A stretch of 64,000 nucleotides of DNA from a virus: positions 36,681 through 100,680 of the IMG/VR virus record IMGVR_UViG_3300022926_000003; one strand, 5' to 3'. The translations under genes were made by a program, and so were the position numbers. Below, piece by piece: positions 8,819 through 61,244 of the stretch. Positions within the stretch are counted from its first letter, which is position 1. Every line of letters begins with the position of its first letter. The notes under the pieces are model-generated. The model did no database searches, was not told the origin of the DNA, and worked only from the letters and a program-made list of their open reading frames with translations.

Positions 8819-8820
8819 AA

Positions 8821-11478: not shown

Positions 11479-11486
11479 TTTCGCGA

Positions 11487-11494
11487 ATATTTAT
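11487..11494 (+). promoter_or_regulatory. class B (late-type) promoter element ATATTTAT
   Basis: Located 25 bases before the ATG at 11512, so the spacing differs from the usual 12. Confidence 0.35.
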
Positions 11495-11511
11495 ATCAAA
11501 ATATATTAGCT

Positions 11512-11694
11512 ATGAAAAAAGATTTAACATTAACAAGCGTAAAAATTCAAAGTGATTTATTTGAAGAATTTAAAGTAGCATGTGTTAGACATAAGTTTTC
11601 TTTTCAAAAACTTGCTGACCGTTGTGTTCATTTGTATCTTACTGATGAAGACTTTAAACGTCAAATCCACAATCACAATAGTTTAGATTTATAA
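11512..11694 (+). CDS. ribbon-helix-helix-like DNA-binding protein
   Basis: 60 aa. SVKIQSDLFEEFKVACVRH is a beta strand followed by a helix, and SFQKLADRCVHLYLTDEDF a second helix, the arrangement of CopG/Arc-type ribbon-helix-helix repressors. It stands alone between two glycosyltransferases with its own upstream AT-rich promoter-like region. A candidate regulator of the phage. Confidence 0.55.
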   Translation: MKKDLTLTSVKIQSDLFEEFKVACVRHKFSFQKLADRCVHLYLTDEDFKRQIHNHNSLDL

Positions 11695-11706
11695 TAAAAA
11701 AACAAA

Positions 11707-14438: not shown

Positions 14439-14856
14439 ATTAACAATATGTCCTCGTTGTGGAAGCGATGCTTGTTACGAACAAGAAATGGGGGCGGATT
14501 ACGTTATAAGTTTATGTTATGGGTGTGGATTTACAACTAATACTTTAATGCAATCTGGCAGTTCATTTCTTAGTGAGCAAATAGAAATACTTCCCGAGTT
14601 GTATAAGGATCTTATTTATGTAGATGATAAAGGTTTAAATTGGATGCCTTCTGCTACTAATAATCCTGAAAAAGGAATGGTGTATGCTGATGGTAAAAAT
14701 GTTAAAGAATGGAGATGGGCTGCTGTAAAAGCTCTTTCTGAAGATCAAAGTGAAAAAACTTATAAAATGGATATGCAAAATCTAAAACACTTTGCCGAAC
14801 ACGATTATATGGAAGCTCTTGATTATATTGGTATGTTTAAAGAAGAAAAAAAATGA
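14425..14856 (+). CDS. zinc-ribbon protein of unknown function
   Basis: 143 aa. CPRC (9-12) and CYGC (31-34) form a four-cysteine zinc ribbon at the N-terminus; the rest is soluble and unrecognised, with a helical C-terminus. Overlaps both neighbouring glycosyltransferase genes. It could bind nucleic acid or act as a structural adaptor. Confidence 0.6.
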   Translation: MLKDKLTICPRCGSDACYEQEMGADYVISLCYGCGFTTNTLMQSGSSFLSEQIEILPELYKDLIYVDDKGLNWMPSATNNPEKGMVYADGKNVKEWRWAAVKALSEDQSEKTYKMDMQNLKHFAEHDYMEALDYIGMFKEEKK

Positions 14857-15473
14857 AAATAAGTTACGGCCTTACAGTATGTAATGAAGATAAAGAAATA
14901 GATAATTTAATTTCTTATTTAATAGAAAAAATTGACAATGAAGATGAAATTGTAATAGTATATGATAAGAATCGGATTACTAATGAGACTATAGAAGTTC
15001 TTGAAAAGTATGAAGATGACATTGATTACTATCCTTTTGATTTTAAACAAAACTTTTTAGAAAATAAAAATTACCTCCAAACTAAATGTACTGGGGACTA
15101 CATATTTCAATTAGATGCTGATGAGATTCCTAGTGAGATTCTTCTAATTAACCTAAAAAATATCCTTAAAGAGAACCCTGTTGATTTATTAATTACCCCC
15201 AGAAAAAACATAGTAGAAGGTCTTACCCCCCAACACACTAAACAATGGGGATGGCAGGTATCACCTGAAGGATGGGTAAACTGGCCTGACCCTCAAAAAA
15301 GAATATATAAAAATTCCTCCAAAATTCAGTGGGAAGGACATCAAGTACATGGGATGGTTAAAGGTTATGAAACTTATGTTACTTTACCTATGGAAGAACA
15401 TTTTAGTATTATTCATAATAAAGAAATAGAACGACAAGTTTTTCAAAATAATAGATATGCACAAATAGGATGA
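14853..15473 (+). CDS. glycosyltransferase family 2
   Basis: 206 aa. ISYGLTVCNEDKEIDNLI is the GT2 N-terminus, FQLDADEIPSEILL (86-99) holds the DXD-type site. Shorter than usual (about 250-300 aa) but with no sign of frameshift. Starts in the stop of the previous gene (ATGA). Confidence 0.78.
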   Translation: MKISYGLTVCNEDKEIDNLISYLIEKIDNEDEIVIVYDKNRITNETIEVLEKYEDDIDYYPFDFKQNFLENKNYLQTKCTGDYIFQLDADEIPSEILLINLKNILKENPVDLLITPRKNIVEGLTPQHTKQWGWQVSPEGWVNWPDPQKRIYKNSSKIQWEGHQVHGMVKGYETYVTLPMEEHFSIIHNKEIERQVFQNNRYAQIG

Positions 15474-16210
15474 AAGTAGCTATTATTTTACATTTACACT
15501 ATCAAGATTTGTGGCCTTGGTTTAGAGTTAGGTTAAAATCTATTTTGCAAAATAATCCTAAAACTGATTTGTATGTTAGTGTAAACAATTTAAATACCCC
15601 CTATATAAAAGATATTAGTAAGTATAGTAAAGAAGTATTTTTAGTAGAAAATAAAGGGTTAGATGTAGCTCCTTTCTTACATGTTTGTGATCAAATTAAG
15701 TCAATTCCTTATAAATATTATATAAAGATCCATGGAAAAAAGTCTATTCATACCCCTAAGTTAGGAGAAATGTGGAGAACTCAATTAGTAGATAGCTTTT
15801 TACATAGTAATATGCAATATGTTACTGCTCTTTCTGAGCTTTCATCTAATACGGTCCCCTGTATGGTAGGTTCTGCTCCTTGGTTATTTAGTGAAACTTT
15901 AGATAACGTAAATTATCTAGATGCTCTTCCCTTTATAAAAAAAGCATTAAAACTCCTCAACACAGACTCTACTTTAGTATTTAAAGATAAAAGACTTGCC
16001 CCTCCTTTTTTTGCTGGGACTATGTTTTTAGTAAATGATCTCTATATGAAAAATCTTTATAATTTAATAGATATTCCTTCTCTCCTTCCTAAATTTGAAG
16101 AGGGATATGACCGCTATGGTAGTTTAGCCCATGGGTTCGAAAGGTTATTAGGTTACCTTACTACAACTTTATTTGAAGGTGAACTATATAGCATAAAAAT
16201 TACTTCTTAA
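15470..16210 (+). CDS. rhamnan synthesis RgpF-like protein
   Basis: 246 aa. VAIILHLHYQDLWPWF, ENKGLDVAPFL (60-70) and YIKIHGKKS (84-92) match the RgpF family, which takes part in rhamnose-glucose polysaccharide assembly. In a phage it may add side chains to a glycan on the virion or on the host surface. ATGA overlap with the previous gene. Confidence 0.72.
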   Translation: MKVAIILHLHYQDLWPWFRVRLKSILQNNPKTDLYVSVNNLNTPYIKDISKYSKEVFLVENKGLDVAPFLHVCDQIKSIPYKYYIKIHGKKSIHTPKLGEMWRTQLVDSFLHSNMQYVTALSELSSNTVPCMVGSAPWLFSETLDNVNYLDALPFIKKALKLLNTDSTLVFKDKRLAPPFFAGTMFLVNDLYMKNLYNLIDIPSLLPKFEEGYDRYGSLAHGFERLLGYLTTTLFEGELYSIKITS

Positions 16211-20851: not shown

Positions 20852-21187
20852 ATGAGTACTAATTACGTTTCAAAGTTCGATGAGTACAGAATGAGTACTA
20901 GCTATTACGCTTACGACGTTGAGCAATTTGATGAAGCTAAGCCGTTCATAGTTTGGAATCCTAATCATAAGACATACTTCTCGTTTACTCTACTTAATGA
21001 TATGATGTATGAAGTTCGAGAAGACTTCGTTGATGACGTTCATAAAGTTTATGTCTACAGATATGCTCGTTATATTAAGTCAATTAATGATTTTAAAAGT
21101 TATAAGCAACAAGTGCAAGTAGTAGATGAAAATCTTAAAGCAGAGATTTTAAATCTTAAGCGTTATTATTACAGAAAAATAAAATAA
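20852..21187 (+). CDS. hypothetical protein
   Basis: 111 aa, Tyr-rich, acidic N-terminal and basic C-terminal half, soluble. Unrecognised. Transcribed from class A promoter copy 1, with a 5' leader of roughly 20 bases. Confidence 0.6.
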   Translation: MSTNYVSKFDEYRMSTSYYAYDVEQFDEAKPFIVWNPNHKTYFSFTLLNDMMYEVREDFVDDVHKVYVYRYARYIKSINDFKSYKQQVQVVDENLKAEILNLKRYYYRKIK

Positions 21188-23659: not shown

Positions 23660-23872
23660 ATGAAAATGTTCGAACAAGTCCGAGTCCCAGACTCACGTAA
23701 GGGTAATGATTATATTGTTACTGCTGAAATTAACCAAGTAGCCTACGATGATAGGGAAGGTCCTTACTACTTTGTACAAAAAGCAGAGTCTGGTAAAGGT
23801 CGTAGGATTAAAAAAGCCGATTTTAAAAGAGGTAAATTCTATCACCATTCTGAGGTTATGACATTGACATGA
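23660..23872 (+). CDS. hypothetical protein
   Basis: 70 aa, basic, beta-rich (DYIVTAEINQVAYDDREG; YYFVQKAESGKGRRIKKADF), unrecognised. Ends in the start of the glycosyltransferase-like gene (ATGA). Confidence 0.5.
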   Translation: MKMFEQVRVPDSRKGNDYIVTAEINQVAYDDREGPYYFVQKAESGKGRRIKKADFKRGKFYHHSEVMTLT

Positions 23873-24807
23873 GTCCTTGTATATTAGTTACTTCCCATAT
23901 AAACAATAGTGAGAAAATAAAAATTGCTCACAAACTTGTAGATTTTTTACAAGATAAAAAGTTACCCGTAATATTTGCGGGTAACTTCCCCATTCCTATA
24001 GAAATACAACAAAAGGTAGATTATACTTTAAATATTAAAGAAAATCCTAGACCTAATAGGTATGCTGTATTTTGGGAGCTTGTAGATCCTAAAATAGAGT
24101 GGGGAGAAAATCTTTATGCGGAATTTGTAGAATGGGATTATGGCTATGCTCATCTTCACCAAATACTTAAAGCAATTAAGTTGTGTCAAAGTTTAGGATA
24201 TGATTATGTTTATCATCTAAACTATGATATAGAATTAAGTGAAGAAAACTTTTATAAATTTATTAACAGAGGGGAAAAAGGAGATCCTTTATTTTTTCCT
24301 TGGGGAGAAGGGGAGGATTATAATTTTGCAACTAATATATTTGCTCTTCCCTGTAACACATATGTAAATTCTATAGAGCCTGTGCTTAATTTGTATAAAG
24401 AGGGAACAGTCAATGATCCTAACCTTAAAGAGGGTTGGTTCTGTGAATCTTTTTTTAAATGGGCAATTGAGAAGTACTCAAACCAAAAATTCCCACACAC
24501 ACAAGATATCCCCTTTTCAGGAGTATATAAAAGTTTTAATGGAAAATATACTTTAGGGCAATCTTTAGTAAACATATATTTTTATTCTGAAAAAAACTCA
24601 TATTTGATTTGGCCTAAAGAGGGAACTTTCCCAGATCCATGTAGTTTGGAACATGAAGATGGAAGTATACACCCTCTTAAACCCACCCCTGTATCTTATA
24701 TTTTTATTTTAAATAGTAATAAAGAAGGGAATTATTATTATAAAGAAGATTTAGTATTTACTAATAATATTGAATTTAGGAGAACTAACTGTATTGTTAA
24801 AAAATAA
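23869..24807 (+). CDS. putative glycosyltransferase (GT-A like)
   Basis: 312 aa. ILVTSHINNSEKIKIAHKLV opens like a Rossmann-type fold, and YVYHLNYDIELSEENFYKF (about 111-129) has an acidic site in the position of the DXD motif. EGWFCESFFKWAIEK resembles an acceptor-domain helix. Weakly supported by sequence, but the next gene is a clear GT2 and the two overlap by one base (TAATGA). Confidence 0.55.
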   Translation: MSPCILVTSHINNSEKIKIAHKLVDFLQDKKLPVIFAGNFPIPIEIQQKVDYTLNIKENPRPNRYAVFWELVDPKIEWGENLYAEFVEWDYGYAHLHQILKAIKLCQSLGYDYVYHLNYDIELSEENFYKFINRGEKGDPLFFPWGEGEDYNFATNIFALPCNTYVNSIEPVLNLYKEGTVNDPNLKEGWFCESFFKWAIEKYSNQKFPHTQDIPFSGVYKSFNGKYTLGQSLVNIYFYSEKNSYLIWPKEGTFPDPCSLEHEDGSIHPLKPTPVSYIFILNSNKEGNYYYKEDLVFTNNIEFRRTNCIVKK

Positions 24808-25946
24808 TGAAATTTACTATATATAGTGGGTTCTATAATAATATAGAATACTTAAATCAAGTTTGGGAAGGTATAAAAAACCAAACCTACACTAATTGGG
24901 AATGGATCATATCAGATGATTTTAGTGAAGATTCCTCTATAGAAAAAACCCTAATAGATTTCACCTCACTCCACCCTCAGATAAAATACATTAAACCTAG
25001 ATGGAAAAGAGAATTTTACTTTAACCCCCCTGTCGAGATTTCTACAGGAGACATTATGCTAGTACAGGATGTTGATGATTTCCCCCATCCTAAATTATTA
25101 GAAGTTTATAAGTATAATTTTGATAAATTCCCCAAAGTAGAAATGATATCTTGTTCTTCTATAATGAAAAAGAATCATATTAAAGGGAAAATTGAGTGGT
25201 ATAGAGATAACCATTATAAGGGGGTCTATAACCTAGAGGAAGGAAAAAAAATGTGGAGAAGTTTAGGAGATGCTAGAGCTTATAGAATAAAAACCCGTTC
25301 CACAGAAGAATTTGCTAAAGAAGGAGAATTTAAACATAGTTTTGCAGAAGATCTTGTTAAGGGGTATATTACGGAAACTAAAGGAAAACTCTTATTCCTC
25401 CCTAGAGTATTACATACTTACTCCCAAGAATCTAACACATCAGTATCCCATAAAGTAAGACCTAGTGAAGAACTACAAATTATGGTTGAAGAAAATAGTA
25501 GGTTTATAGAAAAACGTAATTCTAAAATAAACTTAGAAGAATTAGATTCTATTGAACATTACTATGATGAATGTTATGATGTGTGGGTGGGTATGTTATT
25601 ATCTGATCATTATAATTATCCCCAAAATTTTAAATTTGATATCCACAATTCTCAATTAAATCCCCGTTCTAGAAATAGAATTAGGGAGCTGTTTTTTGAT
25701 TATGGTATAGAGTATTTCAAGTTTAGGGAAGATGCAGATTATGCTTTTTTTAAAGTAAATACACAAGAAGATCTTGAATACACCAAACAAAATATAGAAT
25801 TTTACTTAAAAAATAATAAAAAAGTAACTATTTGCTGTGGGGTAGATAAATTAAAAGATAAATTATGTTCCACAATAGGATACCTTCATTGGTGGCATGA
25901 ATGGGGAGGAAATCGAAATCTTGTTTTTAATCATCAATTTTCATAA
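24807..25946 (+). CDS. glycosyltransferase family 2
   Basis: 379 aa. FTIYSGFYNNIEYLNQVWEG and QTYTNWEWIISDDFSED are the GT2 N-terminal motifs, and MLVQDVDDFPHPKLLEVY (about 88-105) is the metal site. The C-terminal 120 residues are an extra domain not recognised. Second sugar locus, separated from the first by the tRNA region. Confidence 0.8.
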   Translation: MKFTIYSGFYNNIEYLNQVWEGIKNQTYTNWEWIISDDFSEDSSIEKTLIDFTSLHPQIKYIKPRWKREFYFNPPVEISTGDIMLVQDVDDFPHPKLLEVYKYNFDKFPKVEMISCSSIMKKNHIKGKIEWYRDNHYKGVYNLEEGKKMWRSLGDARAYRIKTRSTEEFAKEGEFKHSFAEDLVKGYITETKGKLLFLPRVLHTYSQESNTSVSHKVRPSEELQIMVEENSRFIEKRNSKINLEELDSIEHYYDECYDVWVGMLLSDHYNYPQNFKFDIHNSQLNPRSRNRIRELFFDYGIEYFKFREDADYAFFKVNTQEDLEYTKQNIEFYLKNNKKVTICCGVDKLKDKLCSTIGYLHWWHEWGGNRNLVFNHQFS

Positions 25947-27706: not shown

Positions 27707-27883
27707 ATGGGCATACTAGAATATATCTTACTTGGTGTTTGCTTTGGATTCCTAATGGAACACTTTGGTAAACTTATGGATCTAAGCTTTAACTTCTGGG
27801 AACGTTTGGTATTGTGGGTATTTTGGCCCATTATAGGGATATTTGTAGTATACCACTTTATTAAAGAGTTATTTAGTAAATAA
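27707..27883 (+). CDS. small membrane protein
   Basis: 58 aa with two hydrophobic helices (about 2-17 and 30-50) separated by a polar turn. Unrecognised. Followed by the terminator at 27911. Confidence 0.5.
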   Translation: MGILEYILLGVCFGFLMEHFGKLMDLSFNFWERLVLWVFWPIIGIFVVYHFIKELFSK

Positions 27884-27910
27884 CTTGGTTAAGTTTAATA
27901 AAATATAACT

Positions 27911-27937
27911 AGGAGACCTTGACGGGTCTCCTTTTTT
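27911..27937 (+). terminator. intrinsic terminator
   Basis: AGGAGACC (27911-27918) pairs with GGTCTCCT (27925-27932), six-base loop, then a run of T. The clearest terminator in the window; it separates the small-gene region from the fibre genes. Confidence 0.9.
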
Positions 27938-27942
27938 AGTAT

Positions 27943-27950
27943 ATATTTAT
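27943..27950 (+). promoter_or_regulatory. class B (late-type) promoter element ATATTTAT
   Basis: Six bases after the terminator T-run and 26 bases before the ATG at 27969; likely drives the fibre cluster late. Confidence 0.5.
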
Positions 27951-27968
27951 AAATAAATAAAAGTAAAA

Positions 27969-28244
27969 ATGAGTGAATTAACAAAATACTTGGTGGTTTC
28001 TAGTGAAAATCCCCAAGTAAAAACCCATAATAAAGATGAGATGGCAACTTACATAGTGGCCAATCATAGTGAAGTTACGCAGGAGCAGGCTACTACTATA
28101 GTTAATGATAATGGACTTTGGAATGATAAAAGGTTAATACCTATTGTTAGAGAAGGGCTTAAAGTATCTTCCCCCACCTTAAATGACCAGGGGATTGAGA
28201 ATCTTTTAGACGCTATAGTGGGGTTTTGGAAAGAAAATAATTAA
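27969..28244 (+). CDS. hypothetical protein upstream of fibre genes
   Basis: 91 aa, soluble, helical, unrecognised. First gene of the late fibre cluster. Not related by sequence to the MSHH-type partner proteins further on, but of similar size. Confidence 0.55.
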   Translation: MSELTKYLVVSSENPQVKTHNKDEMATYIVANHSEVTQEQATTIVNDNGLWNDKRLIPIVREGLKVSSPTLNDQGIENLLDAIVGFWKENN

Positions 28245-28255
28245 AAAATAAACAA

Positions 28256-29389
28256 ATGTGGAATATGCCAACAAATCCTCCTGAGCCTTGGCCTCAGTAT
28301 GTAAAGAGGAAAGAGAATATAGGAGTACCTATAATGGAAGTACGTAAAAGGTATCTTGAAGAACAATTATTATTTGAGAATTACGTAAGTACTTTACAAA
28401 CCTTAAATGTTTCATCCCCCAGTGCGGGAGGAGGGGGTCCCCTTCCTTCCTCAACCCCTGGACCTGGACCCGGACCTGGACCTGGACCTGGACCTGGGGG
28501 TAAATATCAATTTGTTGAGGGTGGTAGCAAGACTTACTATTGGGTTAACTTTACATCTACAACTGATAGATTAGGTGATCCCCTTCTTACGGATATTAAA
28601 GCAGGGGTATTAAATGAAACTACTACATTCTTTAATGCACCTGAGTATCCTGGGTATACACCTCAGATTGGATTCCCATTATTTTCTGATGATGTAGATG
28701 GAACGACTGTATTTAAGTTGGGTAGAAGAGATGGAGCTGGTGATTGGATAGGTGGACCTGATTTTAATGGTTATTGGTATATACTCCCCACTGATTTAGA
28801 TTATAAAGATTGGGATTATGAAGATTTTAGACCCTTCACAGGTACTAGTTATTATCGTCCTTATGTCTACGTTGATGGTGACAACTTCTTCAATCCAAAC
28901 GAAATGATAGGGTCTTCACAATTAGATCAGGTTGGGACTGAAACTTGGCAGAGTGCACATATATTTATAACAACTAAAAATCTAACCCCATCTAGTGAAT
29001 TTTTTGGTGTAGATTGGGCAAAGGTTATAAGGGGAGATCTTGATTTGAGAACTCTCCAAGTAGTTTTAGCTCCGGGTTCTAGTTTGAGTCCTAATTTTGA
29101 GACAGCCAATTGGCAAGTCACCTCCGCCGACGTCTTCACGTTAAGTAGTAACCCTAGCCTCGTTGATGTATTGGAGTATAGAGATCAAGCTGGTGGTAAT
29201 AACTTTTTAATGGCTTGGGATCCTGGCAGTGGTGGTTGGTTATTATTTGATTTGAACTCCTTTAGCGGTGTTGTAGGACCTTCTACTTATGATGATGTAT
29301 GGAAAGGAATAGACCCAGGAACAGGGGAATGGGTTTCGGGTGAAGTTGTTAGCATAGGAAAACTTCTTAATGTAGTTCCAATACCTTAA
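28256..29389 (+). CDS. fibre/adhesin-like virion protein, anchor module copy 1
   Basis: 377 aa. The N-terminal anchor (1-55: PEPWPQYVKRK, PIMEVRKRYLEEQLLFENYV) is shared with the genes at 29415, 32241 and 35063. It is followed by a Pro-Gly repeat linker (about 67-81) encoded by a CCTGGA hexanucleotide repeat, then about 290 residues of Tyr/Trp/Asp-rich beta structure with no match to the other three. A conserved attachment end with a variable outer part is the pattern of tail fibres and receptor-binding proteins (inference). Confidence 0.65.
   Translation: MWNMPTNPPEPWPQYVKRKENIGVPIMEVRKRYLEEQLLFENYVSTLQTLNVSSPSAGGGGPLPSSTPGPGPGPGPGPGPGGKYQFVEGGSKTYYWVNFTSTTDRLGDPLLTDIKAGVLNETTTFFNAPEYPGYTPQIGFPLFSDDVDGTTVFKLGRRDGAGDWIGGPDFNGYWYILPTDLDYKDWDYEDFRPFTGTSYYRPYVYVDGDNFFNPNEMIGSSQLDQVGTETWQSAHIFITTKNLTPSSEFFGVDWAKVIRGDLDLRTLQVVLAPGSSLSPNFETANWQVTSADVFTLSSNPSLVDVLEYRDQAGGNNFLMAWDPGSGGWLLFDLNSFSGVVGPSTYDDVWKGIDPGTGEWVSGEVVSIGKLLNVVPIP
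28457..28498 (+). repeat. hexanucleotide tandem repeat (CCTGGA)7
   Basis: Seven six-base units with two substitutions, encoding alternating Pro-Gly. Length changes would stay in frame and lengthen or shorten the linker. Confidence 0.85.
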
Positions 29390-29414
29390 TTAAAAAAATT
29401 AAAAAAATAAATAA

Positions 29415-31925
29415 ATGTGGAAACCAATATACCAACCTGAGCCCTGGCCTCAGTTCTTAAAAAGAAAAGATATAAAAGGACTTCCCATCATGGAAGCCAG
29501 AAAAAAATATATGGAGGAGCAACTCCTATTTGAAAACTATTATAGCAATCTACAAACCCTAAATACTATAAATACTGTATCTCCTAGTGTAGCATCTGCT
29601 GCTGCTGCAGCAGGTGGAGGTGGAGGTGGAGGTCCTAAAAAGAGTATAGGCCCTAGTGGAGCAAGAGGTGGAGGACCCTTACCTCTATTTTTTGATGGGG
29701 TATATGATCTAGGAGCCTCTTCCGTCCTCACCAAGCTTATAGATATGAGGGATCCTACATTGTATATGGAAATATACCCCTCACAAAGTATTTATGAATG
29801 GAAGTATCCTTATGCGGAGGTAGGCACTAACCACGATTATATGTGGAATCCTGGTTGGAATGAGAGTACCATGACTGCTGTTCCTTCTTATAGCTCTAGT
29901 AGGTTCCCAACTATAGATTTATGGGGATCTAATGGTATGCCCAACTGGAGTTCGGGATCTCTTGATTTACTCACTACCATGTATAAAGATGCTAGTGGTG
30001 GGCCAGGTAAATACTACACAGAGTATATGTATGATGGTGTCCCCTCTTACATGGATAGCTTTAGGAACAACTCAGTGGATTCTGTAAGAAAATACTATGC
30101 AGGAATGCCTAGTACTTTAGAAAATCCTATAAGGATTGATTGGGGGGATGGGAATGTAAATGACTATCCTGCAGGTACATATACAAGGGAGTTGGGACCT
30201 TGGCAAATTGAACAAGTATCAGATACCTCCAGTGTATGGACTGCTGAAGCGGCCTCTAGTAACGTTTACAATCAAACCCCTCTGGATCATTGGTACGATT
30301 TAGAGCACTTGGTGCCCGAAGAGTGGATCCCCCATATCCCTGACCCTGTATATACACCTAGGTCTTATTCTTCAGATAATAGATATTCAAGGTTCGCTAT
30401 GGAACCCGCAATTACCTCAAGTAATGGTAATTTCCCTTGGGGGAGTCCTTGGAATAACTGGTGGGATTGGACCAATACTAATACTAATATTAAAGTGTAT
30501 GGAGATCCTAATCCTGCAAGTAACCCTAATTCATATAACCCAGCTTATGGTGGGTTGAGAAGAATAAATTATCTTGATATATCAAACCGCACTTCATTCA
30601 GCTCGTTGTTTTGGTATACGTTAGGAGTTGATATAACTCCCCTTAATATAGCTGCTTGGGATACTAGCAACATAACAAGTATGTATCGAATGTTCTATAA
30701 CTCTAGATTTACATTAGGTAAAGGCATTAAGGAAAATAATTTGTCTAATTGGGATACTTCAAATGTAACCAATTTTGATAGTATGTTTCGAGCGCAAAGC
30801 ACTGAACCTGATACCTCCCAACCTGAAATAGGAGGGTGGGATGTTAGTAGTGGTACCAATTTTAGCGGTATGTTCCTGGTCAATGGCGGTGCCCGTTGGT
30901 TTAACACTAATCATAACGCGGATTTAAGCAATTGGAATATGGGTAATGCCCAAAACATATCTATGATGTTTTATTATAATGGGGCTTTTCAACACAACAC
31001 AAACTTTAATAATTGGAACATAAGTGGTTCAACAGGTTATTACGTATTTGTGGGCACTTCATTTAACCAAGCTTTAACTAATTGGGTTCCGGGTTCAGGA
31101 ACAAATTGGGAAAGGTGGTGTGGTGATTCTTCTATATCTCATACTAATTATTGGGCTACACTTAGGGCATGGGCTAGTAGTTCTGCGGTTGATGTAGATA
31201 CTCATAGCTCTTATTACCCCACCAATATTGGTAAGTTATATACACGTACTTACACTAAGAGAACTTCAGCGGAAATTTCAGAAGGATTGGGAGCACCTGA
31301 TGGGATCCCTTCATCGTACCCAGCAATCCTTTCTCAAGGTACTCAACACTTTCCCCAAGATACAGAGGCTATAAATTATAAAGATTTCCAAGCTTGGTTC
31401 GGTAATAATGTCCGTGGTACGGGTATAACTCTCATTAGTGGAAGTATAAATCACCAAGCATATGAAACTTTGCTAGATAAAGGATGGATTATGGGAAACC
31501 ACGATATATTAGATACAGGTTCTATTGCCTCAAACCGGTTAACCCAACTACCCATAAAAGTATTAGTAAGTGGAAGCCAGTATATTATGTCTTCTTCTTA
31601 TTGGACACCTATAAGTGAAATTCAACCTTATGACTTATATGATCCTCTATATACTCCTACTCTAACATATAGATTTGATCAAAGTGACCCAAGTAATACT
31701 GGTCATCCCTTAAAACTTTCAGAAACACTAGATGGTACTCATGGAGGTGGAGTTGAGTACACCACAGACGTTACAACTGTAGGTACCCCAGGTACTTCAG
31801 GTTCATATACAGATGTTATAGTATCTAACTTGAATGGATTTGAGGTGGAACATAAGCCTAAGTTGTATGCTTATTGTGAAAACCACTCAGGCATGAGTGA
31901 ATTCTATTTAGAAGCTTATATTTAA
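29415..31925 (+). CDS. fibre/adhesin-like protein with BspA-type repeats and cupredoxin-like end, module copy 2
   Basis: 836 aa. Anchor (1-55), Ala/Gly linker with seven Gly (about 64-78), a PKD-like IRIDWGDG motif (about 239), then DUF285/BspA-type repeats (about 392-570) such as NLSNWDTSNVTNFDSMF. The C-terminal 95 residues hold HPLKLSE and YCENHSGM, spaced like the His and Cys-x2-His-x2-Met ligands of type 1 copper proteins. Likely a late, trimeric or extended virion adhesin; followed by a small partner gene. Confidence 0.7.
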   Translation: MWKPIYQPEPWPQFLKRKDIKGLPIMEARKKYMEEQLLFENYYSNLQTLNTINTVSPSVASAAAAAGGGGGGGPKKSIGPSGARGGGPLPLFFDGVYDLGASSVLTKLIDMRDPTLYMEIYPSQSIYEWKYPYAEVGTNHDYMWNPGWNESTMTAVPSYSSSRFPTIDLWGSNGMPNWSSGSLDLLTTMYKDASGGPGKYYTEYMYDGVPSYMDSFRNNSVDSVRKYYAGMPSTLENPIRIDWGDGNVNDYPAGTYTRELGPWQIEQVSDTSSVWTAEAASSNVYNQTPLDHWYDLEHLVPEEWIPHIPDPVYTPRSYSSDNRYSRFAMEPAITSSNGNFPWGSPWNNWWDWTNTNTNIKVYGDPNPASNPNSYNPAYGGLRRINYLDISNRTSFSSLFWYTLGVDITPLNIAAWDTSNITSMYRMFYNSRFTLGKGIKENNLSNWDTSNVTNFDSMFRAQSTEPDTSQPEIGGWDVSSGTNFSGMFLVNGGARWFNTNHNADLSNWNMGNAQNISMMFYYNGAFQHNTNFNNWNISGSTGYYVFVGTSFNQALTNWVPGSGTNWERWCGDSSISHTNYWATLRAWASSSAVDVDTHSSYYPTNIGKLYTRTYTKRTSAEISEGLGAPDGIPSSYPAILSQGTQHFPQDTEAINYKDFQAWFGNNVRGTGITLISGSINHQAYETLLDKGWIMGNHDILDTGSIASNRLTQLPIKVLVSGSQYIMSSSYWTPISEIQPYDLYDPLYTPTLTYRFDQSDPSNTGHPLKLSETLDGTHGGGVEYTTDVTTVGTPGTSGSYTDVIVSNLNGFEVEHKPKLYAYCENHSGMSEFYLEAYI

Positions 31926-31939
31926 TAAAATAAAATAAA

Positions 31940-32227
31940 ATGTCACATCATCATATAGAAAAAAACGAAGATACCTATTATTTAACTCACAATAATTCTA
32001 ACATATTCCACTATGGATATTCAGAAATTGGGGATAGTATTGATTCAGGCCAACCTTATATGGAAAGATTTTCTACTAAAGAAGAATTAAAAAATCGAGT
32101 AGAAGAGCTAGGTCAAGTTTGGAAAGATCCTCTCCTTCCTCCTATGTTGGAAATAGAAGAATTACAAGAATTAGGGACATGGTCTGATGGAAATAGAACT
32201 ATTAGTATAAATGATATCCTAATCTAA
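31940..32227 (+). CDS. small partner protein of the fibre module (copy 1)
   Basis: 95 aa, starts MSHHHIEKNED. Homologous to the genes at 34756 and 36781, each directly after a fibre gene. Conserved TKEELKNRVEELGQVWKDP. Position suggests an assembly chaperone or a small subunit of the fibre, as in many phages (inference). Confidence 0.6.
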   Translation: MSHHHIEKNEDTYYLTHNNSNIFHYGYSEIGDSIDSGQPYMERFSTKEELKNRVEELGQVWKDPLLPPMLEIEELQELGTWSDGNRTISINDILI

Positions 32228-32240
32228 AAAATACAAAATT

Positions 32241-34736
32241 ATGTGGAAACCAATCCAACCCCCAGGAGAATGGCTAGTATTTCTCCAAAGAAAAGATATA
32301 AAGGGTCTCCCTATTATGGAAGCCAGGAAAAGGTACATGCAGGAGCAGTTGCTTTTTGAGAATTACTATAGTAATCTACAAACCCTAAATACTATAAATA
32401 CTGTATCTCCTAGTGTAGCATCTGCTGCTGCTGCAGCAGGTGGAGGTGGAGGTGGAGGTGGGGGTCCTAAAAGGAGTATAGGCCCTAGTGGAGCAAGAGG
32501 TGGAGGAGCCTTATCTCTATTCCTTGAAATGGATATCCACCCAACAGAAATGTATTGGGATCGTGCACTAGGGCTTAGCTACAGTAACCCCCCCTCTAAT
32601 TATACCCCAGGTCTTGAAAGTGAATTACCCCAACCATTCACAATAAATAAATGGACATTTAGTGATGACCCAGCATGGTCAACAAACGCATGGACTAGCG
32701 CTTACTATCAAAATAATTTTGATCAAACCCCCCTACCCCAACCTGATACATGGGTAAATGGATTACCTTATGGGGATGATTTTGACCTTCAAACTCAAAA
32801 ATTAAAAAACTTTGTATTTAACACAGATGATAATTATCTTAGTGTAGTAAGCGGTTCTATACGTTCAGGATATGATGATTATGCTACCGAAGCTTATTCT
32901 TCAAAACTTCGAGAGCTTAAATTACCTATTACTTGGGATTTAGAAGAACCTATAAGAGTTGATTGGGGAGATGGAAACATAAACAATTACTCAGGCCCCC
33001 AGGGTTACCCACAAGTAAATAACGGTCACTTTTATACTACTACTCGTTATTCTATACCTTACTCAAGTACTGATAGCTCATCAAGATGGAGTGTAGAATC
33101 TGGTTCTGCCTATGTTAATGATAAAGTATGGAATCACGCATATGATATAGAACATTTAGTACCTGAAAGTTGGGTTCCTTTTATTCCTGAGCCTGATACT
33201 TATTATCCTCGTCCTGAGTATTCTAGAAATACTTATTATAGATACGCCCAAGAAACTCCTATTACTTCAAGTAATGGATTATTTCCATGGGGAACACGTT
33301 TTAATGATTGGTATAACTGGACACCTGTAACACAATCTGTTAAAATATATGGAAATCCTTTAGCGGGTGGTAACATTTGGAGTTTTTATAATGGAAAAAT
33401 AAGGAGACTCCATTATTTAGACATTTCCAAGTTTACATCATTTCGTAGCTTATTTAGAGATGCACAGTTAATAGATTTAACCCCTCTTAATATGAGTACT
33501 TGGGACACAAGTCATATAACAAATATGAGTGAGATGTTTAGAGGGAGTTTTTTGTTGGGGAAAGATATCAAGCAAAATGATTTGGGCAACTGGGATACAA
33601 GTAATGTAACCAATATGTCTACTATGTTTGGTAATTATAGTGGAGGTATGATAGGTGATCCTGGTGATATAGGTAAGTGGGACGTAAGTAATGTAACCAC
33701 TATGTATCAAATGTTTATGACCACAATATATGCATTCCAGAATACTGGACATTTTCTTTCCTCAGACTTAAGTAATTGGGATCTGAGTAGTGTAACCACT
33801 ACAACTCTTATGTTTTTTAATAATAGTGCTTTTCAACATAATACACAGTTTAATAACTGGGATGTAAGTAATATAAGCAGTATGGGTTATATGTTTGGTG
33901 GGTCAGGTTTTAAGGAAAGACTTACCAACTGGAATTTAAAGGATGGAGTAAATATGCAGAGCATATTTAACCATGTAGCTATGTCCCATACTGATTTCTT
34001 TGAAACTCTTAAAGCGTGGGCCTCAGGTTCAGCATCTAATGTGAATATGTCAGATGCAAGTAGTGGTTATAAAATAAGTTTGGGTGCTACTCCCTCATTA
34101 TCCCTAGATAAAAGAAATAATGGGAATGGAAATACTGTTCCTTATGACACTCCCATATATTGGAACGATACTGACTTCATAAATCTTGCAGATTTCCGTA
34201 AATGGTTTGCCAATTATTCTAATAGCACAGGTGTAACCCTTATTAGTGGAAGCTCAAACCACCAGGCGTATGAAACTTTATTAAGTAGAGGATGGTCAAT
34301 GCCTGGAAACATAGATATATTAGAAACTGGTTCTATAGCTGCTAATAGAATAACACAAGTACCCATACAAGTAACTGTAAGTGGAAGTCAATTTGTAATG
34401 TCATCGAGTGTTTTCCTCCCCATATCAGAAATTCAACCTTATGATAATTACGATCCTCTATATACTCCTACCCTAACATACAGGTTTGATCAGAGTGATG
34501 CTAGTAATACGGGTCACCCACTAAAATTCTCAGAAACACTAGATGGTACCCATGGAGGTGGAGTTGAGTACACCACAGACGTTACAACTGTAGGTACCCC
34601 AGGTACTTCAGGTTCATATACAGATGTTATAGTATCTAACTTGAATGGATTTGAGGTAGAGTACAAACCCAAACTATACACCTATTGTGAAAACCACTCA
34701 GGCATGAGTGAATTCTATTTAGAAGCTTATGTTTAA
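32241..34736 (+). CDS. fibre/adhesin-like protein with BspA-type repeats and cupredoxin-like end, module copy 3
   Basis: 831 aa, same order as the protein at 29415: anchor, Gly9 linker, IRVDWGDG (about 234), BspA/DUF285 repeats (about 390-583, for example GNWDTSNVTNMSTMF), and the C-terminal domain with GHPLKFSE and YCENHSGM. Outer parts are diverged while the anchor and the last 280 bases are almost identical in DNA to copy 2, which indicates recent duplication or gene conversion. Confidence 0.7.
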   Translation: MWKPIQPPGEWLVFLQRKDIKGLPIMEARKRYMQEQLLFENYYSNLQTLNTINTVSPSVASAAAAAGGGGGGGGGPKRSIGPSGARGGGALSLFLEMDIHPTEMYWDRALGLSYSNPPSNYTPGLESELPQPFTINKWTFSDDPAWSTNAWTSAYYQNNFDQTPLPQPDTWVNGLPYGDDFDLQTQKLKNFVFNTDDNYLSVVSGSIRSGYDDYATEAYSSKLRELKLPITWDLEEPIRVDWGDGNINNYSGPQGYPQVNNGHFYTTTRYSIPYSSTDSSSRWSVESGSAYVNDKVWNHAYDIEHLVPESWVPFIPEPDTYYPRPEYSRNTYYRYAQETPITSSNGLFPWGTRFNDWYNWTPVTQSVKIYGNPLAGGNIWSFYNGKIRRLHYLDISKFTSFRSLFRDAQLIDLTPLNMSTWDTSHITNMSEMFRGSFLLGKDIKQNDLGNWDTSNVTNMSTMFGNYSGGMIGDPGDIGKWDVSNVTTMYQMFMTTIYAFQNTGHFLSSDLSNWDLSSVTTTTLMFFNNSAFQHNTQFNNWDVSNISSMGYMFGGSGFKERLTNWNLKDGVNMQSIFNHVAMSHTDFFETLKAWASGSASNVNMSDASSGYKISLGATPSLSLDKRNNGNGNTVPYDTPIYWNDTDFINLADFRKWFANYSNSTGVTLISGSSNHQAYETLLSRGWSMPGNIDILETGSIAANRITQVPIQVTVSGSQFVMSSSVFLPISEIQPYDNYDPLYTPTLTYRFDQSDASNTGHPLKFSETLDGTHGGGVEYTTDVTTVGTPGTSGSYTDVIVSNLNGFEVEYKPKLYTYCENHSGMSEFYLEAYV

Positions 34737-34755
34737 TAAAATAAAATAAAATAAA

Positions 34756-35049
34756 ATGTCACATCATCATATAGAAAAAAACGAAGACGTATATTATGTA
34801 GCATATAACAATGCAGGTATTGTACACTATGGGTATTCTGATTTAGATCATAAGTTTATTACAGGCCAACCAAACTTAGAAACATTTACTACACCAGAAG
34901 AATTAAAAAACCGAGTAGAAGAATTAGGAAAAGAGTGGAAGGATCCTAGAGTTCTCTCCCCTGTAATAGATATGTTTATGGAGGATGAAACCGCAGAATG
35001 GGTAGATCCCAAGGGGGTAACATGGACTATAAATGATATCCTAATCTAA
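34756..35049 (+). CDS. small partner protein of the fibre module (copy 2)
   Basis: 97 aa, MSHHHIEKNED start, TPEELKNRVEELGKEWKDP core. The upstream spacer and the first 40 bases are identical in DNA to the copy at 31940. Confidence 0.6.
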   Translation: MSHHHIEKNEDVYYVAYNNAGIVHYGYSDLDHKFITGQPNLETFTTPEELKNRVEELGKEWKDPRVLSPVIDMFMEDETAEWVDPKGVTWTINDILI

Positions 35050-35062
35050 AAAATACAAAATT

Positions 35063-36757
35063 ATGTGGAAACCAATATACCAACCTGAGCCCTGGCCTCA
35101 GTTCTTAAAAAGAAAAGATATAAAGGGTCTCCCTATTATGGAAGCCAGGAAAAGATACATGCAGGAGCAGTTGCTTTTTGAAAACTATTATAGCAATTTA
35201 AATACCCTAAATACTGTAAATACTATATCTCCTAGTGTAGCATCTGCTGCCTCAGCAGGTGGAGGTGGAGGTCCTAAAAAGAGTATAGGCCCTAGTGGAG
35301 CAAGAGGTGGGGGCTCCTCCGGCGAACTCGTAACTTATTCCCTTGCAATAAGAACTGGTTATTTTGCTACCCAAGAGGCTCTAGACCATTATAATAATAA
35401 TGAAGCTAACCCTAATTATGATTATAATAGCGGTCAGATTGTCACAAGCTTTCTTTCATCAGGGTCCGAAACACAGGATTGGTGGGCTATTCCCGTAAGA
35501 GGGGGGGTGGCTATCCCAAGAACCCCAGAAAATGGTTGGTCTGCATCAACAGGAACCTCGTGGAAGGTTACGGTTTCTCCCGCAATCCTACCTGAAACAA
35601 GACAGGCGCTAGATGATTATCTTGGGGGTCCTCTAGCTGACCAAGAAATTACTATAGATTGGGGTGATGGTGGCCCAGTTGAGAAAATAAATATGGGTAC
35701 TTATAATTTTAGAAGATTTAATAGTTCTCCAACATATTATTCTCTCCAAGATGACCCAGATTCATTTTATTATTATCTTTTTGGTTCAGACTCCCTCCCC
35801 CTTTGGATATTCCATGATTATAGTGGGGTGCCTTTAGGGGAATATACAATAACTATAAAAGGGACAAAAGAAATGTTAAACATTCTAAGCCCAATTCCTT
35901 TTACCCAAGACAGCCATATTCAAAATATCTTCCGCCGTTCGAAAAGTCAAATATTAAATGCGAGTACTGGGGCACGTTATTACGTACCCCCGGTATATCC
36001 TTTAGGACCTGTTGTTAGCTTAGATGGGTGGGATGAACCATCAACGATAGCGAATATATTACCAGCAGTTCAGCAAGGAAGTGTAACAGGAAAACCATCA
36101 GCTCGCCTTAATAAAAGTTGGGTAGATTATTTAAAAAATACAGATAAAAGCCAAATCACTGGTTTGCGAAATGTACTTAATTTTGCCTGGGGTTTAGAGG
36201 ACTTTTATAACCAAAATAATATTGATGCTTCGGACTGGTGTGGGCCTAGTGTAAATGATCTGCAGAATTGTTTCTTACAGGCTGATCATTTACCCGCAGG
36301 AATAGAAAATTGGGATACTAGTAATGTATATAGTATGTCCCAGATGTTCTTTTATTATAATGTTTTTGGTAATTTTGAAGATGATGGTTCAGACTTTTTT
36401 ACTAACCCTAGTGAATATGCTACTAGAGCAGCAGGTATAGTTAATTGGGATACAACAAATGTTAGGATCCTCTATAAAGCTTTCAATTATCACCCAATTA
36501 TAGATGTTTCTTTAGCCAATTGGAATTTACCTAATCTGGAAAATGCCAGTCAAATGTTCCGTAATGCTACTGGAATGAGTGATGCTAATTTAGAGTTAAC
36601 TTTAAAAGGTTGGGCAGATAACCCCAACACAGCTGACAATGTTAATGCTTCAAGTTTTGCAACCTCCAGAACATATTCTGTGGGTAGTGATATGGATTTA
36701 GCAATCCAAGTACTCACAGCTAAAGGTTGGACTATCTCAGGTATAACAATAGTATAA
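35063..36757 (+). CDS. fibre/adhesin-like protein, module copy 4
   Basis: 564 aa. Anchor nearly identical in DNA to copy 2, Gly5 linker, a PKD-like ITIDWGDGG (about 195), BspA-type repeats (about 405-510, IENWDTSNVYSMSQMF) and an ending LTAKGWTISGITIV that is common in DUF285 proteins. The cupredoxin-like C-terminal domain of copies 2 and 3 is absent. Confidence 0.66.
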   Translation: MWKPIYQPEPWPQFLKRKDIKGLPIMEARKRYMQEQLLFENYYSNLNTLNTVNTISPSVASAASAGGGGGPKKSIGPSGARGGGSSGELVTYSLAIRTGYFATQEALDHYNNNEANPNYDYNSGQIVTSFLSSGSETQDWWAIPVRGGVAIPRTPENGWSASTGTSWKVTVSPAILPETRQALDDYLGGPLADQEITIDWGDGGPVEKINMGTYNFRRFNSSPTYYSLQDDPDSFYYYLFGSDSLPLWIFHDYSGVPLGEYTITIKGTKEMLNILSPIPFTQDSHIQNIFRRSKSQILNASTGARYYVPPVYPLGPVVSLDGWDEPSTIANILPAVQQGSVTGKPSARLNKSWVDYLKNTDKSQITGLRNVLNFAWGLEDFYNQNNIDASDWCGPSVNDLQNCFLQADHLPAGIENWDTSNVYSMSQMFFYYNVFGNFEDDGSDFFTNPSEYATRAAGIVNWDTTNVRILYKAFNYHPIIDVSLANWNLPNLENASQMFRNATGMSDANLELTLKGWADNPNTADNVNASSFATSRTYSVGSDMDLAIQVLTAKGWTISGITIV

Positions 36758-36780
36758 AAAAACAATAAAATAATATTAAA

Positions 36781-37032
36781 ATGTCACATCATACAAGAGA
36801 AACAGACGGATTTTTTATAGCATGGGGGAATGGAGAAACCGACCCCAATACTAATACCCCCCAACACGTACATTATGGTCCCTATACAGCTGGGAGTGAG
36901 GTACATACCGGTCAACCCCAATTTGAGTTCTTTGATACAGAAGAAGAACTACGGGTAAAAGTAGAATCCCTTGGTAAAGTTTATGTAGGGGAGGAAGAGT
37001 TTGGGATAGAAAATCCCCCTCCTTTACCATAG
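36781..37032 (+). CDS. small partner protein of the fibre module (copy 3)
   Basis: 83 aa, starts MSHHTRETDG, diverged from the other two but keeps the TEEELRVKVESLGKVYV core. Last gene of the fibre cluster. Confidence 0.55.
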   Translation: MSHHTRETDGFFIAWGNGETDPNTNTPQHVHYGPYTAGSEVHTGQPQFEFFDTEEELRVKVESLGKVYVGEEEFGIENPPPLP

Positions 37033-37048
37033 TAATATAAAAGTCTTA

Positions 37049-37116
37049 GTCATATTAACGTCATGCGAAAATGGGGATCCTCGGATCCCCTTTCGTATAT
37101 TCATGGGGTAAGGTTA
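37049..37116 (+). promoter_or_regulatory. class A promoter (copy 5)
   Basis: GTCAT at 37049 and 37060; inverted repeat GGGGATCC/GGATCCCC (37073-37090); core TATATTC at 37096 (36 bp); GGGGTAAGGTTA leader. The clearest copy. Confidence 0.8.
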
Positions 37117-37134
37117 AAGCGAAAGAAAAAACAA

Positions 37135-48110: not shown

Positions 48111-48251
48111 ATGAAGCATTTGCAAGAAGCTAAAATGAATTATTTTCAGCATTGGTGGTGCGCAACAACATGTGGTGTAGCACTTTTAATTCACGCTTGG
48201 CTTCCAAACGTATTAGAAAATTACACATCAAACAGAATTTGTAAAAAATGA
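48111..48251 (+). CDS. small membrane protein, DUF6356-like
   Basis: 46 aa: MKHLQEAKMNYFQHWWCATTC then a hydrophobic stretch with HAWLP. The HxxEAxMxYFxHW start and the HAxxP ending resemble small single-helix proteins of the DUF6356 type, common in aquatic bacteria and phages; function unknown. Its stop overlaps the next ATG (ATGA). Confidence 0.5.
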   Translation: MKHLQEAKMNYFQHWWCATTCGVALLIHAWLPNVLENYTSNRICKK

Positions 48252-48835
48252 AAGAATTACAAAGATTTAGACAATTCCTCGCAGAAGATAGAGGAGAATT
48301 TGGTCAAGAGTCACTCGATAAGCTCTTCGATACCGTTGAAGCTATGGGTGAAGGCCCAGTACAGCAAAAAGCAATGGACATGATGGAGGATGGTGCTTTC
48401 TTCCCAGAAGAAGGAACATCCCCCGCAGTTAACCAAACTCAAGAGGCCGTTGAGGAGCTCAACGCCGTTAGAAACAGTACAGATGATGAGGAAGAAATAG
48501 AAGAAGCACAATTGGACCTTGATGCTATAATCCTCATTAAAAACGCCGTTAAGAAAACAGGACCAGTTTCTTACGGGGAAATGGGGCAATCATATAACTA
48601 CTACGTTAAAGGAGATGATTTGTTTACCCAAACCAGAGAAACATTTGAAGTACCAACCAACGAAGGTGAAGAGGTAAACGAGCAAGAATTAGACATTGAG
48701 AACCCAGGCAACCCTCTTTACGATTTAAATAACGATGAGGAAGCCGTTAAATACCTTAATGATCTTATAGACAAATATGGAGAAACAGTAGTCCAACTTT
48801 GGATTACTAGCGGTAACTATCCCCAAAGTTATTAA
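48248..48835 (+). CDS. leader-tagged packaged protein 1
   Basis: 195 aa. The start MKELQRFRQFLAE is the leader shared by six consecutive genes and ends in Leu-Ala-Glu, the (L/I)-x-Glu site cut by T4-type prohead proteases. The body is very acidic and helical, with NYYVKGDDLFTQT-type strands at 115-128, unrecognised. As with T4 internal proteins (leader MKTYQEFIAE) it is probably packaged in the head and injected with DNA. Confidence 0.68.
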   Translation: MKELQRFRQFLAEDRGEFGQESLDKLFDTVEAMGEGPVQQKAMDMMEDGAFFPEEGTSPAVNQTQEAVEELNAVRNSTDDEEEIEEAQLDLDAIILIKNAVKKTGPVSYGEMGQSYNYYVKGDDLFTQTRETFEVPTNEGEEVNEQELDIENPGNPLYDLNNDEEAVKYLNDLIDKYGETVVQLWITSGNYPQSY

Positions 48836-48839
48836 TAAA

Positions 48840-49274
48840 ATGAAAGAATTACACACATTCAGAAAATTCCTCGCAGAAGGACAAATCAACGAAAACCTTG
48901 CAGGAATGAAAGCAGGTAAGTTTAATGAGGATGACAGATACAAAACCCTATACGTATTTTCACCTTCTAAAATTGAGGATATAACATACGGTGAAGAAGA
49001 TTTAGACAATGAAGTTGATATCCCTTCAGGTAAGTACCACGCTATACTTTGGCACAATTCAGATTTAGAAGTTTATACCGCTAACAGTGAGGAAGAATTA
49101 GTGAAGGAATTAGAAGAAGATTTCTTTAACGAAGGTGCATTTGGAGATTTTGAGGGATTGAAAGCAGCCGCTAACGATTCAGAACCAGATGGTGATTCCA
49201 ACCACGGAATGGCTTTGTTTGTTGATGGTAAATTAGTAGCAGGCCCTCAAGGTGGGGTAGAAGTATACAAATAA
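48840..49274 (+). CDS. leader-tagged packaged protein 2
   Basis: 144 aa. Leader MKELHTFRKFLAE, predicted cut after Glu13. The mature part is acidic with an alpha/beta pattern (DRYKTLYVFSPSKIEDI, GKYHAILWHNSDLEV), unrelated to its neighbours beyond the leader. Five bases separate it from the previous gene. Confidence 0.68.
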   Translation: MKELHTFRKFLAEGQINENLAGMKAGKFNEDDRYKTLYVFSPSKIEDITYGEEDLDNEVDIPSGKYHAILWHNSDLEVYTANSEEELVKELEEDFFNEGAFGDFEGLKAAANDSEPDGDSNHGMALFVDGKLVAGPQGGVEVYK

Positions 49275-49281
49275 TAATAAA

Positions 49282-49581
49282 ATGAAAGAATTAAACGCCT
49301 TTAGAAAGTTTCTAGCCGAAAACATTGCTCCGGACCAAACCATTTATAGCGTCAAATACCAAGACGAAAGGGAGGGATTAGAGGCAACTCTTTACGTTGC
49401 AGCAGACAGCAATGAGGAGGCAGAAACAATGGCCGACCAGTATATGAAAGACAAATATGTAGACTCATATGAGTACTACAACTCAATGGAGTTAAGCGTT
49501 CCATTTGAAAAGTTAGACCCCGAAGAACAAGAATTATTTAAAGGCAACATTGCCGATTTTGGAATAGACAACTACGCATAA
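49282..49581 (+). CDS. leader-tagged packaged protein 3
   Basis: 99 aa. Leader MKELNAFRKFLAE; the mature 86 residues form a small alpha/beta domain (YSVKYQDEREGLEATLYVAA) rich in acidic and Tyr residues. Confidence 0.66.
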   Translation: MKELNAFRKFLAENIAPDQTIYSVKYQDEREGLEATLYVAADSNEEAETMADQYMKDKYVDSYEYYNSMELSVPFEKLDPEEQELFKGNIADFGIDNYA

Positions 49582-49587
49582 AACACC

Positions 49588-49947
49588 ATGAAAGAATTAA
49601 ATACATTTAAACGGTTTCTCGCAGAAGAACAAATCAACGAAGAAATAGCAACCAACGAAAAAGATATAGAGATTATCGCAGATTTAGATGCTTGGAAGTC
49701 ACATAGGTATCTATTAGATAGAGGGAATAAAGAGGAGATTATGGTAAAATATAAGGACAAAATTGAGAAACTATCCCCAAATACACCCGAAGAAAAATAT
49801 GAATTACTCGTCAATACAGTCGGATATCATAACAGTGATGAAGCTAAGAAGGAGTTTGAACGAATAACTAACGAATATTATAATCATCCATTGGTTCAGT
49901 ATAAAGACATTTTGTGGAAAAGGGACAAATGGTATAGTGGGGGTTAA
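49588..49947 (+). CDS. leader-tagged packaged protein 4
   Basis: 119 aa. Leader MKELNTFKRFLAE followed by EQINEEIA, which is also close to the start of protein 2 (GQINENLA). Helical, charged body ending in KWYSGG. Confidence 0.66.
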   Translation: MKELNTFKRFLAEEQINEEIATNEKDIEIIADLDAWKSHRYLLDRGNKEEIMVKYKDKIEKLSPNTPEEKYELLVNTVGYHNSDEAKKEFERITNEYYNHPLVQYKDILWKRDKWYSGG

Positions 49948-49971
49948 ATAAAGCTTGAAAAATAAAACAAC

Positions 49972-50472
49972 ATGAAAGAACTAAAAGCATTTAGAAAGTT
50001 CCTTAATGAATCCCCAGCGTTTACTAGGAATAGATCAGTTGCTAGGGAATCAATTCAAGAATTTTTTGGGCCTTTTAAAAAAAACTCTAAAAAACAAGAA
50101 CTCCTATCTATAGCAAAAAACCTAAGCCACTCAATGAATGGGGCAGGTGCTAATAAAGAAACATGGCGTGAACTTACAGATACTATAAAACATAATATAT
50201 GGATGGTCACCCCCACTCCCTTTAATGTAACAAAAATGGTATTAGATGATTGGGAGGTAGCTTTAAAAAAAGACACTAAAAGGAAACAAAGAGGGAAAAC
50301 CCCTAATGACCCTATTACAGTAGGTTTAATAGCTGCAGGTAACGCCCGTATTGTAGAAGAAGTTATAAAAAAAGCCGTTGAAGAAATGGGTGGTTTAGTT
50401 TCATATGAAGAAAATAATAAAACCTATACTTATGAAATTAAAAATGGGAATTTATTTACATATATAAAATAA
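49972..50472 (+). CDS. leader-tagged packaged protein 5
   Basis: 166 aa. Leader MKELKAFRKFLNE (Leu-Asn-Glu). Unlike the others the body is basic and Lys-rich. The C-terminal strand pair (GGLVSYEENNKTYTYEIKNG, LFTYIK) resembles the end of protein 1's central region (VSYGEMGQSYNYYVKGDDLF), which suggests a common small domain. Confidence 0.66.
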   Translation: MKELKAFRKFLNESPAFTRNRSVARESIQEFFGPFKKNSKKQELLSIAKNLSHSMNGAGANKETWRELTDTIKHNIWMVTPTPFNVTKMVLDDWEVALKKDTKRKQRGKTPNDPITVGLIAAGNARIVEEVIKKAVEEMGGLVSYEENNKTYTYEIKNGNLFTYIK

Positions 50473-50488
50473 GAACATATAAAACAAC

Positions 50489-61231: not shown

Positions 61232-61239
61232 ATATTTAT
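61232..61239 (+). promoter_or_regulatory. class B (late-type) promoter element ATATTTAT
   Basis: Starts 13 bases before the ATG at 61245. Confidence 0.5.
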
Positions 61240-61244
61240 AAATA

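Follow-up and report, generated by a model that had tools for sequence, protein, structure and literature searches.

A cassette of tandem adhesin-type genes with a common anchor, exchangeable outer parts and marks of recombination between copies in an uncultivated virus

To our knowledge, work on adhesin swapping has mostly been carried out on phages of enterobacteria. Among the described systems, the tail-spike clusters of the Ackermannviridae encode the proteins TSP1-4, in which conserved N-terminal domains are combined with variable C-terminal parts (PMC11414711), and in T-even phages adhesins are swapped at conserved motifs (Tetart, Desplats and Krisch 1998, as cited in PMC11414711). T4-type phages furthermore harbour PeSL promoter/stem-loop cassettes for which a role as mediators of gene shuffling was reported (Arbiol 2010 and Comeau 2014, as given in PMC4503421). 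Proteins built from DUF285/PARCEL repeats have been described as well (PMC2996958) and were also reported in Vibrio phage pir03 (PMC7765460).

The locus presented here lies in a window of 64,000 nucleotides (the whole stretch of DNA that was analysed, i. e., bases 36681-100680 of the 100,680-bp virus record IMGVR_UViG_3300022926_000003). According to the list of open reading frames (ORFs), seven plus-strand genes between 28256 and 37032 follow each other in the order A1, A2-B2, A3-B3, A4-B4, with the row of four adhesin-type A genes spanning ~9 kb (Table 1). Like the Ackermannviridae tail spikes, these are clustered receptor-binding-type proteins with conserved 5' ends and variable C-terminal parts; unlike them, the A proteins have no recognisable known anchor family, carry DUF285 repeats where the spikes are enzymatic, and are followed by a partner gene in three copies. 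Recombination between copies was observed in the Ackermannviridae, whereas for the A genes we infer it from the sequence. With T-even swapping the locus would share recombination at conserved stretches that flank variable outer parts; it differs in having four tandem genes per genome and an N-terminal anchor as the conserved stretch. The N-terminal part is conserved and the C-terminal part exchangeable, and the locus thus belongs to a known kind, the modular receptor-binding proteins with conserved attachment ends. The combination of an undescribed anchor, DUF285 outer parts, a partner and a repeat-bordered cassette is new.

Table 1. Features of the adhesin cassette and of the dispersed repeat (window coordinates).
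Feature	Position	Strand	Remarks and basis
Whole adhesin cassette	27875-37048	+	Present in window; missing from close relatives G004 and L054
Terminator-like hairpin AGGAGACCTTGACGGGTCTCCT, then T-run	27911-27932	+	Left edge of cassette
TATTTATAAATA, T4-late-promoter-like motif	27944-27955	+	13 nt upstream of P0, the first cassette gene
P0, 91-aa protein	27969-28244	+	First cassette gene; ORF
A1: anchor, Gly/Pro linker, outer part	28256-29389	+	Without partner gene; ORF
A2: anchor, DUF285 repeats, C-terminal domain as in cyanophage fibre-type proteins	29415-31925	+	
B2: small MSHH partner	31940-32227	+	ORF, homology
A3: layout like A2, anchor mosaic	32241-34736	+	ORF, synonymous-site analysis
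B3: small MSHH partner	34756-35049	+	ORF, homology
A4: anchor, DUF285 repeats, without C-terminal fibre domain	35063-36757	+	ORF, Pfam
B4: small MSHH partner	36781-37032	+	ORF, homology
Dispersed promoter/hairpin-like repeat copy	37049-37126	+	Right edge of cassette
87-nt exact match, A2 anchor vs A3	29547-29633 = 32373-32459	+	
107-nt exact match, A2 3' end vs A3	31740-31846 = 34551-34657	+	
Repeat copies in window	2901, 20776, 21189, 21585, 25950, 37049, 40387, 42234, 43403, 43832, 44414, 46630, 46956, 54316		

The original prediction had claimed a common anchor in four proteins and an MSHH-type gene behind three of them, and both claims were borne out, the anchor being N-terminal. Over ~70 residues, A1, A3, and A4 are 67-90 % identical to A2, the anchor itself (consensus MWKPIYQPEPWPQFLKRKDIKGLPIMEARKRYMEEQLLFENYYSNLQTLNT) comprising ~50 residues that are followed by a Ser/Ala- and Gly-rich linker; B2, B3, and B4 are homologous, with B3 and B4 being 37-57 % identical to B2. 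The claimed "almost complete" DNA identity, however, was too strong a wording: only 88 % is reached in anchor plus linker (A2/A3 and also A2/A4) and likewise in the last 300 nt of A2 versus A3, and A1 does not share in this at the DNA level. The common C-terminal stretch holds for A2 and A3 only and is missing from A4. The longest exact runs between copies are 107, 87, and 62 nt. Not even 25 nt in a row are shared exactly by A1 and one of the other copies, and the synonymous sites of A1 are saturated, which marks it, judged by sequence, as an old relative of A2-A4 instead of a recent copy. The B genes fall short of near-identity (B2/B3: 57 % amino acid identity, dS ~1).

A3 diverges over its first 24 codons, so that even the anchor is a mosaic. 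In an alignment of the A2, A3, and A4 anchors, the agreeing pair switches blockwise (A3/A4, A2/A4, A3/A4, A2/A4, A2/A3, and so on), the 53 informative sites falling into 8 runs, a number as low as was obtained in 0 of 20,000 shuffles. This mosaic is of the kind that gene conversion or crossing over would leave. The array layout and these recombination marks are solid. Recombination between copies, as originally proposed, is thus supported by the mosaic anchors and by the synonymous-site contrast described below; module variants were not seen among three assemblies of the window's own population, which differ by one base. Two of these assemblies are L005, identical over 20 kb, and L006, identical over 20 kb except for one T lost from a T run at window position ~33387. 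The loss breaks the A3 frame at codon ~383, with sequencing error, decay, and switching being indistinguishable. A diversity-generating retroelement was dropped as a candidate, in agreement with the original prediction, as no RVT_1 match was found in four (possibly incomplete) records.

Between viruses, the modules are not invariant. G004 (IMGVR_UViG_3300034418_012737), which aligns over 31 kb of the window with a mean identity of 90 % and up to 97 % in the blocks flanking the site, has an empty site, where 96 bases separate the counterparts of 27874 and 37126 as compared to 9251 (27875-37125) in the window. The same empty site was found in L054 (IMGVR_UViG_3300021335_002050; 85-91 % identical). 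The more distant but syntenic L007 (IMGVR_UViG_3300022178_005428) bears one A+B module at the place of the array and a second, a B-A pair, 4 kb further on. In G004, the counterpart of window ~40 kb holds an anchor gene with a protease-like gene behind it, and that of window ~54 kb a fibre-anchor-fibre group. Given the empty sites in G004 and L054 and the single local module in L007, the viruses differ strongly in the number and place of their modules, in line with the original prediction.

The right edge of the array lies at an intergenic repeat of ~78 nt, one copy of which starts 16 nt past B4. It consists of GTCATnTTAAAGTCAT, a hairpin in some copies, and then TTCGTATATTCATGG, with two GTCAT boxes and a CGTATATT core, and occurs in 14 copies in the window and also in relatives. 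Read as an ORF start, the repeat gives "MRKWGS..LSYIHG", which is probably untranslated. The left flank in G004 and L054 passes into the right-edge repeat with hardly any sequence in between, and a repeat copy lies downstream of each variable block that contains anchor genes (in the window, two in G004, and the two L007 modules), the second G004 block with two more genes between fibres and repeat. In the comparison of window and G004, breakpoints were found in 9 of the 13 repeat-bearing gene gaps as compared to 10 of the 54 others (P = 8e-4). Given how frequent the repeats are, some of them would be expected to coincide with borders anyway. No repeat marks the left border of the array, which lies directly before the terminator-like hairpin. 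Within the repeat, the hairpin is strong in the copies at 37049 and 40387 and in those at L007 5782 and 11385, and absent from others; the strongest hairpins belong to the two L007 copies behind adhesin modules, and no fold common to all copies was predicted. As with PeSL, a dispersed intergenic repeat with a promoter-like core, and in some copies a hairpin, is enriched at gene-shuffling breakpoints. Unlike PeSL, the repeat is unrelated in sequence as far as tested, lacks a hairpin in many copies, and also adjoins adhesin cassettes. It hence resembles PeSL in position, PeSL membership is not claimed, and its promoter role is putative. The gain and loss of whole cassettes beside this repeat appears to be a larger-scale process that the original prediction had missed. 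In addition, the gene MSTNYVSKFDEYRMS... (20852-21187; reverse complement 15728-16063 in L041) is flanked by other repeat copies in G004 than in the window, as though it had been relocated between repeats.

At the other end of the cassette, TATTTATAAATA occurs three times in the 100,680 bp as compared to 0.10 expected copies; its promoter role is unsure, since the copy at 61233-61244 abuts a start codon. P0 had no Pfam match and no confident PHROG match, and the A1 outer part matched neither Pfam nor PHROG.

Profile searches of viral contigs for the anchor yielded 17 loci, some of them from the same population. The outer parts behind it vary, comprising DUF285, a carboxypeptidase-regulatory-like domain with a score below the cut-off, several unassigned domains, or a short tail only; the short-tailed anchor genes are free-standing and lie directly upstream of fibre-type genes. 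The anchor tree is poorly resolved, with A2-A4 grouping together and L018 and L007_b nearby. In cellular genomes 31 pattern matches were obtained, none of which was confirmed, phage records gave no match, and neither Pfam nor PHROG (including Ackermannviridae TSP/Gp10-like domains) contained a matching known anchor domain. That one anchor is joined to many outer parts across contigs, that cassettes are present or absent as wholes, and that the A2/A3 C-terminal domain is 64 % identical to a cyanophage protein would all fit a recent import of outer parts from other viruses via the conserved ends, with no exchange among copies of the same genome. This is possible, though on balance unlikely, because the partners of the anchor blocks alternate among A2, A3, and A4 inside a single genome. 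This points towards exchange among these copies, even if their ancestors could have sat in different genomes.

The repeats of A2-A4 are of the DUF285/BspA-like type, 26 residues long, and DUF285 (PF03382) scored 70.9, 108.9, and 56.7 bits in A2, A3, and A4, respectively, against a curated cut-off of 25; A1 had no Pfam match to it. Both L007 A proteins carry it as well (443 and 48.8 bits). The 26-residue repeats with their W...F core in A2-A4 and in both L007 adhesins agree with the known DUF285/PARCEL proteins, from which the A proteins differ in that their repeats are attached to a viral anchor plus Gly-rich linker and that their genes stand in tandem with those of small partners. The C-terminal ~90 residues of A2 and A3 form a domain that is common to cyanophage fibre-type proteins and matched by tail-fibre PHROGs; in Synechococcus phage S-B68, the gene with the same domain lies close behind an annotated tail fibre. 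Within these C-termini (31659-31900 and 34470-34711), a GHP ... YC.NHSGM pattern was noted that is also present in Synechococcus phages S-B68 and S-H38; its His, Cys, His, and Met recall a type-1 copper site, and a PDB sequence search gave chance-level matches only. The predicted structure of A3 was poor (mean pLDDT 39.7), making its fold search meaningless. DUF285 is best known from cell-surface proteins (PMC2996958), and the bulk of DUF285 proteins are such proteins of bacteria; the A proteins might accordingly be other secreted or surface-modifying proteins produced within the infected host rather than adhesins. We consider this improbable, given that the N-terminus has no signal-peptide-like features by inspection and that the anchor was found in viral contigs only, where it stands beside tail genes (in L039, the genes for tail sheath, tail tube, and baseplate hub come after it), in addition to the tail-fibre PHROG matches.

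The B proteins of the window measure 83-97 aa and showed no significant Pfam or PHROG match, known families of tail-fibre assembly chaperones included. For B2, a strand-strand-strand-helix core was predicted (pLDDT ~80 in the core only), for which the closest structural matches, all of them weak, come from the Synechococcus phages S-CAM8 and S-SKS1 and are small proteins. A search with the B profile recovers this S-SKS1 protein as well (28 bits); its gene is located among virion genes, between a capsid assembly protein and the prohead protease. As a guess, B may be an accessory or assembly factor of the adhesin.

As protein conservation alone could hold the ends alike, synonymous sites were compared. 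Between A2 and A3, dS is 0.3-0.5 at the ends (anchor codons 25-92: 0.32; last 101 codons: 0.47) and reaches ~2 or saturation over the middle and codons 1-24, which agrees with the originally noted difference of the middle parts. The contrast in synonymous differences to the middle is pronounced both for the anchor (Fisher, P = 1e-9) and for the C-terminus (P = 2e-8). For orthologous neighbour genes of window and L007, dS amounts to 1.0-1.5; the paralogous anchors are hence closer to each other than the window/L007 orthologues, and the adhesin middles further apart. Tandem duplication followed by divergence, with the ends remaining alike through purifying selection alone and no recombination between copies, would agree with anchor and C-terminus being the most conserved parts also at the protein level (pN 0.03-0.04). 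It is nonetheless quite improbable, as selection on the protein does not restrain synonymous sites and the anchors are blockwise mosaics; it could be rescued only if the ends were strongly selected at the DNA or RNA level. Finally, that the tandem copies were made or merged by misassembly of a variable locus is hardly credible: all sequences are metagenome assemblies with exact repeats of up to 107 nt, and one assembly differs by 1 nt inside A3, but three records agree in their order across 20 kb and differ by no more than one base, all frames are open, and a module of this kind also occurs in L007, a different virus.

Baseplate wedge genes at 61.6-63.9 kb support a contractile-tailed virus, whose host, read from gene content, is probably a member of the Bacteroidota. 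PHROG naming of the structural-looking genes near 2.4 kb of G000 found nothing. The virus also carries a full-length GroEL-type chaperonin gene (3494-5119; phrog_5725, E = 6e-162), blocks of glycosyltransferase-like and acyltransferase-like genes (8189-16210 and 23869-25946) that are partly different in G004, and, at 48248-52138, a series of genes starting with MKEL..F(R/K)(K/Q)FL, a second tandem paralogue family with a common N-terminus that is variable in G004, too.

We regard it as likely that the A genes encode modular tail adhesins with a common anchor, subject to cassette gain and loss and to conversion of their ends between copies. A T4-type tailed virus would thus possess a cassette of four adhesin-type tail proteins, each docked to the virion by the ~50-residue N-terminal anchor and the Gly-rich linker and each displaying a different outer part, namely DUF285/BspA-type in three and an unassigned domain in A1. 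Two of the three DUF285-type proteins would add the cyanophage-fibre-type C-terminal domain, and the small partner genes of three A proteins may provide accessory or assembly factors. Change would occur at two levels. Whole cassettes may be acquired, lost, or exchanged for others, their right border lying at the promoter/hairpin-like repeat, and homologous recombination or gene conversion among the tandem copies would keep the anchors and the A2/A3 C-termini alike, while the outer parts diverge or get swapped. An adhesin function and a virion location of the A proteins are well motivated by the arguments above; receptor binding, a function of the partners, and use of the repeats as actual recombination sites are putative. 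A more far-reaching version would see the array as a store of adhesins kept within the genome, their outer parts being of leucine-rich type, in which segmental gene conversion makes chimeras during infection and cassettes also move between viruses at promoter/terminator-like repeats; this appears doubtful, but, if true, it would represent a phage counterpart of antigenic-variation archives.

Summed up, in uncultivated viruses an anchor family that is absent from the searched genome and phage collections joins many outer parts, and its profile can serve in the search for adhesins among viral proteins without a name. The array looks like one that may let the virus change what it sticks to, and offers a concrete locus for measuring the rate of adhesin change in nature.
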